Both the position numbers and the translations under genes were made by a program. Below, in pieces: positions 22,093 to 24,879 of a stretch of DNA of 29,448 bases (the first letter of the stretch is position 1; every line of letters starts with the position of its first letter). The notes beneath the pieces are model-generated. The model ran no database searches. It was not told the origin of the DNA and saw only the letters and a program-made list of their open reading frames with translations. Location of the stretch: the IMG/VR virus record IMGVR_UViG_3300030106_006094, positions 7,859-37,306 of that record, one strand, 5' to 3'. This DNA comes from a virus.

Positions 22093-22226
22093 TTATCTTC
22101 CTTTTGTTGTAGCTCATCGAGCTTGTTGTTGATGTCTTGGAGAGTGGACTGGATGTCTCGAACCACGGACCACGCTTCTTGGACTTCTTGTTCTGACAGC
22201 GTGATTTTGATCTCGATCTTTTCCAT
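22089..22226 (-). CDS. Small coiled-coil protein, first gene of minus operon
   Basis: 45 residues (MEKIEIKITLSEQEVQEAWS... LDELQQKEDK), with GGAG seven bases before the ATG and an ATGA overlap with the next gene. A short strand is followed by one long amphipathic helix. As the first gene of a twelve-gene operon it may carry a regulatory role, but that is only inferred from position. Confidence 0.7.
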   Translation of the reverse strand: MEKIEIKITLSEQEVQEAWSVVRDIQSTLQDINNKLDELQQKEDK

Positions 22227-22324
22227 TCGTTTCTCCAAGTCGGTTTCTGATAATAGGGGTATTTGTTTTGATATGCAACACCTCCTATATGAAAGTTGTT
22301 TATTACTTTTAGTTATAAGTTTAT

Positions 22325-22352
22325 TTTATATTGGTCTTGATAGGTATGCGAA
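22325..22352 (-). promoter_or_regulatory. Promoter of the minus-strand operon
   Basis: On the minus strand TTCGCA (22352-22347), 16-base spacer, TATAAA (22330-22325). Its -35 lies inside the spacer of the plus-strand promoter, so the two cannot be occupied together. Predicted leader of about 90 bases containing an unused AGGAGGTG ribosome-like site near 22280. Confidence 0.55.
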
Positions 22353-22365
22353 AATATGGTAAAAT
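22337..22365 (+). promoter_or_regulatory. Promoter of the rightward small-gene unit
   Basis: TTGATA (22337-22342), 17-base spacer, TAAAAT (22360-22365), each 5 of 6 to consensus. A TGCGA pentamer (22347-22351), also found in the regulator promoter, lies in the spacer. Confidence 0.72.
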
Positions 22366-22370
22366 ATAGG

Positions 22371-22435
22371 AGGGTCATAAAACCTTTGTCGAAACTGACC
22401 CTTTCGATTGTTCTTTAACCGGCCGCTGCTGCGGC
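22371..22435 (+). promoter_or_regulatory. Leader with two hairpins
   Basis: AGGGTCA (22371-22377) pairs perfectly with TGACCCT (22396-22402); GCCGC (22422-22426) pairs with GCGGC (22431-22435) around TGCT. Both sit in the roughly 90-base untranslated leader of the gene at 22466. Role unknown. Confidence 0.5.
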
Positions 22436-22465
22436 TACAATTTAAACAACTAAACGGAGGTGCTT

Positions 22466-22888
22466 ATGAAAGTAAGCGATGAAGCTTGGTGTCTTTATGA
22501 AAAGACAAACGTATTTCTCATGGAAAGATCGATACCGATTCGGTTTCGAGACTGCCCAAGCAAAGAACCAAAGATCGATTTGGCTCAAGCCCGGAAACTG
22601 GCGCGACGTTGTTTTAGAAAATTTTCTAAAAGGCCGCTCAGTTTCTACGTTAACAGAATCGAAGCGATCTCAGGATCGACCCACACTTGGACCAACAACA
22701 AGAAAGGCAATGGAAAAACCTTGCTTGTCAATGTCCACAAAGATTGGGGCGAGTTCATTCACGACCTGTCTCACTTGATTCAGGCCAAGAATCAATCTCG
22801 ATACCGGAGGGGCAAAGCTTGGCATTGTGCGGAACACGCGGCTTTGGAATTCAGGATCGCAAAAACGGTCTTGGAGGATTGTCCATGA
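22466..22888 (+). CDS. Putative metal-binding protein, HDxSH/HxxEH motifs
   Basis: 140 residues. The C-terminal half has His99 and His103 (HDLSH) followed by His120, Glu123 and His124 (HCAEH) on what look like two helices, an arrangement suggestive of a zinc site and distantly reminiscent of small metalloproteases, though the canonical HExxH order is absent. The N-terminal half is basic. Start at ATG 22466, five bases after GGAGG, preferred over GTG 22460. First gene of the rightward unit. Family not recognised. Confidence 0.75.
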   Translation: MKVSDEAWCLYEKTNVFLMERSIPIRFRDCPSKEPKIDLAQARKLARRCFRKFSKRPLSFYVNRIEAISGSTHTWTNNKKGNGKTLLVNVHKDWGEFIHDLSHLIQAKNQSRYRRGKAWHCAEHAALEFRIAKTVLEDCP

Positions 22889-23112
22889 AAATTCCAAGCA
22901 ACCTGACCCAAGCTTGGCTCGATAAAAAGGGCTTCAAGCTGGTAGAGATCTATCGCAACGGTTACCGCCTAGCGATTCTCAGATCTGTCGGTAGAAAGTG
23001 GGCACACCTAAGTGTGGCCGCAACTGGGGACAACTTCAAAGTACCAGTTGACCAGTTGATGTACCGGCCCGTTGTTCGCAAACGTGGACAATGGACTGTG
23101 GACTACAACTAA
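22885..23112 (+). CDS. Hypothetical protein, 75 aa
   Basis: ATG at 22885 overlaps the preceding stop (ATGA) with GGAGG seven bases upstream; a longer frame upstream is a shadow of the preceding gene. Basic, beta-rich sequence (MKIPSNLTQAWLDKKGFKL ... RKRGQWTVDYN) resembling a small nucleic-acid-binding barrel in composition. No recognised family. Confidence 0.75.
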   Translation: MKIPSNLTQAWLDKKGFKLVEIYRNGYRLAILRSVGRKWAHLSVAATGDNFKVPVDQLMYRPVVRKRGQWTVDYN

Positions 23113-23116
23113 TAAA

Positions 23117-23132
23117 GGGGGCCTCGGCCCCC
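23117..23132 (+). promoter_or_regulatory. GGGGGC-CTCG-GCCCCC hairpin
   Basis: Perfect 6-bp GC stem with a CTCG tetraloop between two genes. No U tract follows, so it is more likely an mRNA stabiliser or partial attenuator than a full terminator. Confidence 0.55.
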
Positions 23133-23162
23133 AACTCCTAATCAACTAAATCGAGGTAAAAA

Positions 23163-23393
23163 ATGAAAGTAAGAATTCAAGAAACCATAGAGCTTCGCAA
23201 ACACGAGGTTCAAGTTTTAAAAAAAATGGCGGAAGAAAACGGCTACGTTTCTTGGCGTGACTTTGTTAGCTGGAGAATTTGCTCACTGGGCTACGGTGAT
23301 TTAAACGCCGAAATTTCTGAATGGCTAGAACATGAAGAGTGGCAAAACATGACCGAAGAAGAGCGAGAAAAAAATGAGGTTGCTCCGGTTTAA
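23163..23393 (+). CDS. Small protein, possible RHH-type DNA-binding
   Basis: 76 residues behind a CAACTAAATCGAGG leader with GAGG seven bases from the ATG. The first 45 residues could fold as strand-helix-helix (MKVRIQETIEL, then HEVQVLKKMAEENG, then SWRDFVSWRICSLG), as in ribbon-helix-helix proteins, followed by an acidic tail. This assignment is tentative. Followed directly by a strong terminator. Confidence 0.68.
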   Translation: MKVRIQETIELRKHEVQVLKKMAEENGYVSWRDFVSWRICSLGYGDLNAEISEWLEHEEWQNMTEEEREKNEVAPV

Positions 23394-23400
23394 AAATAAG

Positions 23401-23423
23401 AAAGGGGCTTCGGCCCCTTTTTT
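23401..23423 (+). terminator. UUCG-loop intrinsic terminator
   Basis: AAAGGGGC, TTCG, GCCCCTTTTTT: an ideal tetraloop-capped stem followed by a T run. Ends the unit 22466-23393. Confidence 0.95.
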
Positions 23424-23437
23424 GTTAATTCGCCTTT

Positions 23438-23665
23438 CTATATAGTACTTTTTCATAAAATTAATTTTTTTAAAAAAATAATTTCAAAAATGCCGGTACT
23501 GGTGGGACTAATGGGATTGCCCAGTAAACACGCGGCTTTCAGCCGTACCGGCACGGTCCCACTGGTGTTTAACAACGGGACAGTTTTCGTTAAATTGCAT
23601 TTCCACATAGGAGTTTTCAGGAAATCTTTTTTTTATTTTTTTATTTTTACTAAAAAGTACTATAT
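23438..23665. other. Candidate replication origin or packaging site
   Basis: Gene-free. A perfect 14-bp inverted repeat (ATATAGTACTTTTT at 23440-23453 and its complement at 23652-23665) brackets about 200 bp. Inside are an A/T-only tract (about 23456-23482), then a GC-rich core, then poly-T tracts (23627-23650). The core has interleaved inverted repeats: 23491-23499 with 23545-23553, 23502-23508 with 23556-23562, and a small hairpin at 23534-23544. It ends 33 bases before the terminase small subunit, whose protein commonly binds DNA near its own gene; an origin is the alternative reading. Function is inferred. Confidence 0.5.
23491..23562. repeat. Interleaved inverted repeats, pseudoknot-like order
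   Basis: TGCCGGTAC (23491-23499) and GTACCGGCA (23545-23553) are complementary, as are GTGGGAC (23502-23508) and GTCCCAC (23556-23562). The order is 1-2-1'-2', not nested. ACTGGTG also occurs as a direct repeat at 23498-23504 and 23561-23567. Confidence 0.8.
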
Positions 23666-23698
23666 GGTAAGCGTTTTTAATTAGGTAAGATTTGTCTT

Positions 23699-24247
23699 AT
23701 GGCAGAACAGGTAATTAAGAAAGAAACCAGAGGCCGACCTCGGGTTAGTGAGGCGACCCGACTGACCGGGAAACAGGTCAAGTTTGTTGAACTGGTTGCA
23801 ACCCGAGAAGGTCAGGACACTTTGCAGAACCTAGCAATCGAAGCTGGGTTTAGTCCGAAGGGTGCGAACACCCGAGCATACGAAATGCTCAACCCCAGGA
23901 TTTCTCCACATATATGCAAGGCGTTGCGTGAACGCAGAGAACAGCTTGCTGAAAAGTATGAAGTGACCTATGCCAGACACATTCGTGATCTTCAGAAGAT
24001 CCGTGATGATGCTCTTGCCAACGGAGCTTACTCGGCGGCAGTGCAAGCCGAAAAGGCGAGAGGGTTAGCGCAGGGTAATATCTATGTGAACAAGAGCGAG
24101 ATCCGTCATGGGTCGATTGATTCCATGAGCAAGGAACAAGTCAAAGAAGCACTAAACGAACTCAAGCGTCAGCTTGGGGAAAAGGTGGTTGTTGATGTCG
24201 AGCCAGAGCGAGTCGAGCTTCTGGAAGACGCTCAAGTGGCACATTGA
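23699..24247 (+). CDS. terS: Terminase small subunit
   Basis: 182 residues. After a basic leader (KKETRGRPRVSEATR) comes the phage small-terminase helix-turn-helix pattern, LTGKQVKFVELVA ... LAIEAGFSPKGANTRAYEML (about 22-65), then an oligomerisation helix region and an acidic tail. It recognises viral DNA and recruits the large subunit for packaging. No good ribosome site precedes the ATG. Unusually, about 5 kb of small genes separate it from the large subunit. It directly follows the repeat-rich candidate origin/packaging region. Confidence 0.85.
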   Translation: MAEQVIKKETRGRPRVSEATRLTGKQVKFVELVATREGQDTLQNLAIEAGFSPKGANTRAYEMLNPRISPHICKALRERREQLAEKYEVTYARHIRDLQKIRDDALANGAYSAAVQAEKARGLAQGNIYVNKSEIRHGSIDSMSKEQVKEALNELKRQLGEKVVVDVEPERVELLEDAQVAH

Positions 24248-24602: not shown

Positions 24603-24643
24603 TGAGTCATATAGGATGAATCCCATGAGTAGTTTTAATGTAC

Positions 24644-24668
24644 TGGAAGTTAAAAAATGACTTCCATG
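24644..24668. repeat. Hairpin and inverted copy of a 20-bp repeat
   Basis: GGAAGT (24644-24649) and ACTTCC (24660-24665) form a stem. On the minus strand 24668-24649 reads CATGGAAGTCATTTTTTAAC, identical over 20 bases to 28856-28875 on the plus strand. Confidence 0.85.
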
Positions 24669-24672
24669 AAAA

Positions 24673-24879
24673 ATGTATATCCTTTATAGGAAACATTTAG
24701 AAAAGCAGCAGAGGCTAGAACAGTTACGACAGGATCGTTTGGCGCGTATTGCCAAGGAAAAAAGATTAAATGAGATTAGAAAACAAAAACTAGCTCGTTT
24801 AGAAAACATGGTAAGGAAAAAGCATTTAGAGGCGGGCATGACTCTTGAAGAAATTAATAACGGAGTCTTGTATAGGTAA
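24673..24879 (+). CDS. Small very basic coiled-coil protein
   Basis: 68 residues, dominated by Arg/Lys/Glu/Leu heptads (LEQLRQDRLARIAKEKRL). The pI must be very high, consistent with nucleic-acid binding or scaffolding. There is no ribosome site before the ATG, which is the main reason for doubt; the frame is otherwise clean and fills the space up to the next promoter. Confidence 0.5.
   Translation: MYILYRKHLEKQQRLEQLRQDRLARIAKEKRLNEIRKQKLARLENMVRKKHLEAGMTLEEINNGVLYR

Follow-up and report, generated by a model that had tools for sequence, protein, structure and literature searches.

The interleaved inverted repeats described here are the middle part of a larger DNA element of ~240 bp (about 23434–23671), which is most likely a phage replication origin made up of an iteron core and unwinding elements (probability roughly 0.6). 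The window analysed, a stretch of 29,448 nt, is part of a viral contig of the IMG/VR collection (IMGVR_UViG_3300030106_006094). Five short GGKAC-type units, three direct and two inverted, lie between the two least stable segments of the window at the start of a rightward operon, and this plan recurs in dozens of other phage genomes. We tentatively suggest that it represents an undescribed origin architecture (three iterons and two inverted iterons on either side of a dyad, a melting arm at each end, and the halves in helical register) that is common to a large group of uncultivated marine phages and has a counterpart of the same plan, unrelated in sequence, in phage DSL-LC04. Searches of the open literature turned up no previous account of this sequence or of a replication origin in these phages.

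Organization of the element

A 76-aa ORF and the small terminase gene (terS) border the 305-nt intergenic region that contains the repeats. A first-pass annotation had reported two complementary pairs in the order 1-2-1'-2', and direct reading of the sequence confirmed both: a 9-bp pair, TGCCGGTAC (23491–23499) with GTACCGGCA (23545–23553), and a 7-bp pair, GTGGGAC (23502–23508) with GTCCCAC (23556–23562). The direct ACTGGTG repeat reported to overlap them is also present (copies at 23498–23504 and 23561–23567). Equal two-base gaps had been noted on the two sides; they exist in the window (TG on the left, CG on the right) but are not kept in relatives, where the core-to-core pitch is 9 bp in the left half versus 11–12 bp in the right half. 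The description of the right half, read as DNA, as inverted copies of the left-half units is correct, and this feature is conserved across relatives. As for the view that such an arrangement is hard to get by chance, the arrangement is real, but taken alone it is only mildly unusual. The 9/7 interleaved set occurs once in the window, at least one such set arose in 4 of 200 whole-window dinucleotide shuffles, and the looser 7/6 form is expected ~1.4 times per window from such shuffles. The significance of the arrangement therefore comes from its conservation in dozens of other genomes and not from its rarity.

The repeat arms of the annotation are units 1, 2, 4 and 5 plus chance extensions. Beyond them, the element contains a further unit in the direct series (GGGAT), a fourth GGGAC, which could pair with unit 5 in a single strand, and an imperfect outer inverted repeat that encloses the interleaved repeats (Table 1). 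The outer arms displayed a weak excess of cognate over swapped pairing (p 0.008 across lineages). By reading of the sequences, a weak central-spacer dyad appears in other lineages as well, with a different sequence. A candidate protein-coding ORF spanning the repeats (23490–23684) was rejected: a 1-nt indel shifts the frame between groups, the lengths range from 26 to 82 aa, and there is an early stop in one relative (L018). No tRNA or tmRNA was found.

Table 1. Parts of the element and the adjoining gene (positions in the window)
Feature	Position	Strand	Remarks
Left A/T-rich arm, presumed unwinding element	23434–23490		left half of outer inverted repeat
CTATATAG box	23438–23445		inside left A/T-rich arm
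Iteron unit 1, GGTAC	23495–23499	+	inside left arm of the 9-bp pair
Iteron unit 2, GGGAC	23504–23508	+	inside left arm of the 7-bp pair; 9-bp spacing in 63/63 measured elements
Iteron unit 3, GGGAT	23513–23517	+	GGTAC or GGGAC in relatives
Central spacer with short dyad (GCC...GGC)	23519–23537		weak, from reading of the sequence
Iteron unit 4, inverted GTACC	23545–23549	-	inside right arm of the 9-bp pair
Iteron unit 5, inverted GTCCC	23556–23560	-	inside right arm of the 7-bp pair
Extra (fourth) GGGAC	23577–23581	+	lost in other lineages, which have CGTTAC instead
Conserved CACATAGGAGTTTTC block	23604–23618	+	
Right A/T-rich arm, presumed unwinding element	23615–23671		inverted copy of left arm
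Box in right A/T-rich arm	23652–23667		
Terminase small subunit gene	23699–24247	+	first gene rightward; PHROG 51, E 2.9e-7

Conservation of the units and their spacing

With the small terminase sequence of the window as query, 24 IMG/VR loci were found, in many of which the intergenic region upstream of terS was conserved even when the genes further left were different. DNA-pattern searches enlarged the set to 64 distinct elements, comprising the window and 63 further IMG/VR phage contigs; the relatives are all metagenomic contigs, many of them short, and the lineages share ancestry. Five GGKAC units, three direct followed by two inverted, were present in 63 of the 64 elements, spaced by 9 and then 8–9 bp in the direct half and by 11–12 bp in the inverted half. 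The distance from unit 3 to unit 4 in these 63 elements was 32, 42–44 or 53 bp (50 and 51 bp in two further, divergent elements), so that the classes of gap between the halves differ by steps of about one helical turn. Measured from unit 1 to unit 4, the distances were 49–50, 59–61 or 68–70 bp. The helical phase was coherent at 10.5 bp (R 0.83, Rayleigh p ~5e-4, with nine lineages treated as independent; given their shared ancestry, the true significance is lower).

Each of the contigs checked carried a single iteron cluster, and stray matches to the unit outside it fell almost exclusively within ORFs. A collection of 84,980 genomes from bacterial and archaeal species did not contain the iteron triple, and blast searches of phage records with the element from four lineages (the window and three relatives) returned chance matches only. 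A segment of Vibrio phage 424E50-1 (OX241437.1 23575–23600; L288:1501–1526) has AGCCCTTATAGGACGGGGC in common with the central dyad of group C; it is a 26-nt terminator-like hairpin between genes and was rejected as a homologue.

Pairing across genomes

From the given strand, the annotation had proposed an RNA that would form a pseudoknot or two exclusive folds. Such a structured RNA would accord with the perfect pairing of both stems in the window, with folding z-scores of −2.4 (core) and −4.4 (whole), and with the 90% of cells found paired in 33 aligned sequences. Comparison among genomes argued against it. Bases flanking the cores paired with their own partners no better than with those of swapped genomes of the same group (52 unique elements). 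The consensus folds differed among groups, without a nested structure common to the lineages, covariation terms were near zero, and an Rfam search of the element gave no match. In the 33 aligned sequences, stem 1 contained unpaired cells at four positions, including the middle, in near relatives. It is mismatched in L005 and L013 (GGGAC versus GTACC) and in L018 and L028 (GGTAC versus GTCCC). For stem 1, pairing is thus lost in close relatives whose sequence is otherwise conserved, the observation that the annotation itself had named as telling against its proposal, and the compensatory changes in both stems that were looked for in related genomes were not found.

Only one clean double change was seen, from T-A to G-C at columns 28/80 (units 2 and 5), and it is present in all group-A sequences. 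Unit 3 and the fourth GGGAC show the letter change of unit 2 as well. Because one copy cannot be the partner of every other simultaneously, the double change is best seen as an alteration of the repeat unit read by a protein rather than of one base pair. The order 1-2-1'-2' is that of an H-type RNA pseudoknot; the pairing of the element, in contrast, is not maintained across genomes, and two-base loops flanking a 9-bp stem are unlike the classical H-type. Moreover, the strong promoter-like site seen in many relatives is downstream rather than upstream of the element. We conclude that this is a double-stranded DNA element and that an RNA pseudoknot is not supported; a structured RNA of either kind is very improbable.

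Stability and strand composition of the flanks

Duplex stability was computed by the nearest-neighbour method. The two flanks of the iteron block were the least stable (left) and second least stable (right) 60-bp segments of the 29.4-kb window. On a 50-bp scale, the left flank of the window genome was the least stable segment of the entire contig, with the right flank second. Among seven large contigs, the left flank ranked first without exception and the right flank between second and fourth; one of the two flanks ranked first for instability in 52 of 54 loci.

Strand composition was examined as the keto (G+T) skew of fourfold-degenerate sites in same-strand genes. An upward step at the element was observed in five of six contigs (z 2.4–4.7) and was absent in the sixth; transcription of the late operon could explain it at least in part. 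The steepest step was located near the element or a few kb rightward (4–5 kb to the right in two contigs). GC skew alone was rejected as an indicator, since it follows gene direction. As evidence for an origin, both the stability ranks and the skew step are circumstantial. No one-mismatch DnaA-type box was common to all groups. DnaA boxes are present in many iteron-type origins and are not required in all. Another A/T-rich intergenic stretch of the window, at 24630–24690, contains a GACTTCCATG motif that resembles CTTCCATGGAAG upstream of terS in L015 and L028.

Position in the genome

The element forms the left start of a rightward terS/GP88 operon in constant orientation. The next gene rightward is terS in some groups, among them that of the window, and a GP88-family gene in others, which indicates that the site stayed in place when the gene order around it changed; in many relatives 3–6 kb separate terS from the element, which still stands at the operon start. 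To its left, the window genome encodes an AEP-TOTE-type primase, UvrD and SNF2 helicases and a family A DNA polymerase.

Some features of the neighbourhood were seen in individual relatives. In L013, L014, L015, L016 and L028, terS is preceded by a different, G/C-rich region with repeated motifs like GTACCG, CCGCG and GCCCGC; in two of these (L013 and L028) the element sits before the GP88 gene. Phages that are otherwise near-identical carry swapped genes directly left of the element (22100–23430 in the window; L005, L007, L010 and L012); the swap has its junction right at the element, and this looks like a recombination boundary or cargo site.

Alternative functions

We considered four other functions for the element; from the most to the least likely, these are a looped transcription switch, a packaging site, the structured RNA discussed above and an attachment site. 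For the switch, a phage regulator bound to the five units would loop the DNA and switch promoters at the two A/T-rich ends, or a TTGACA-type promoter just to the right. In most genomes the element does separate a leftward block from the rightward operon, TTGACA stands just right of it in many relatives, the outward-reading TACTATAT boxes at its two ends are inverted copies of each other, and A/T-rich flanks would also suit promoters. Some relatives also encode nearby a protein that combines DUF6891, an RNA polymerase alpha C-terminal domain (PF03118, E 1.7e-19) and sigma-70 region 4 (L052, G003:1526–1705 and G008:24465–24644; in L052 the gene is leftward, 2–3 kb left of the element), possibly a phage transcription regulator that binds A/T-rich DNA. 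However, this protein was not found in the window genome, isolated units were absent from other promoters of these genomes, and in two contigs (G002 and G006) nearly all genes on both sides of the element run in the same direction. The two flanks are, in addition, the weakest DNA of the whole genome, beyond what promoters need. A transcription switch is for these reasons unlikely, if the best of the alternatives.

Recognition by the small terminase subunit of a packaging (pac or cos) site is less likely still. The element directly precedes terS in the group of the window, as such a site might, yet terS has moved away in many genomes and linkage between the two is not maintained. Sequence continues for at least 1 kb to either side of the element in at least 40 of the 64 loci, contrary to what fixed virion ends at this place would give. 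An attachment site of the phage, with arm-type sites for an integrase, is hardly credible. In outline the element does resemble lambda attP: its short arm-like sites, three direct and two inverted, are grouped 3 + 2 in opposite orientation around a core. In contrast to a lambda-type attP, the element comes without an integrase found, without bacterial copies and without a shared core sequence: eight related contigs, possibly fragments, had no tyrosine (PF00589, 0 of 8) or serine recombinase, and the absence of the iteron triple from the 84,980-genome collection means that no integrated copies were seen.

A probable replication origin and its comparison with known systems

A replication origin remains the preferred reading, and the element has the features expected of an iteron origin: regularly spaced short repeats, an adjacent A/T-rich region and a single locus in the contigs checked. 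From the unit structure, spacing, instability and position observed, we infer a path from binding through opening to replication. A putative initiator of the phage or the host would bind all five units in a single wrapped or looped complex, for which the three direct and two inverted half-sites may be kept in helical register. The bound complex might strain the DNA and open one or both A/T-rich arms, where helicase and primase would then be loaded. If the element is an origin, its sequence could serve as a signature by which to find replication starts across a widespread group of uncultivated marine phages and to anchor genome maps, and it would be a compact system in which to study the use of direct and inverted half-sites by a phage initiator. 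The rule that spacings change by about one helical turn yields a direct prediction for insertions.

Phage DSL-LC04 (OR003939), whose terS is 50% identical and whose gene layout is similar to that of the window phage, carries an element at the equivalent place upstream of its rightward terS operon. There, outer A/T-rich inverted arms of 36 bp surround 131 nt, and the stretch of lowest stability in the 39.9 kb examined falls within the element. Unlike the element of the window, it lacks GGKAC units; the sequences are unrelated and only the plan is in common. Elsewhere in DSL-LC04, short G/T-rich repeats (GGTTAGGTGCGGTTCGGTGTGG...) follow one another in an intergenic region (L289:16540–16690).

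Iteron origins, such as phage lambda ori, phage P4 ori/crr and those of iteron plasmids, are compared here by their general features rather than by sequence alignment. Like the element, they combine several short repeats with easily melted A/T-rich DNA, one such site per genome, close to replication genes. The element could nevertheless be assigned to none of these origins. In contrast to them, the unit of the element is just 5–8 bp long with a pitch of 8–9 bp, its halves are oppositely oriented across a helically phased gap, and melting regions lie on both sides and form a long inverted repeat. What sets the element apart is this double-sided plan, in which one half is inverted relative to the other.
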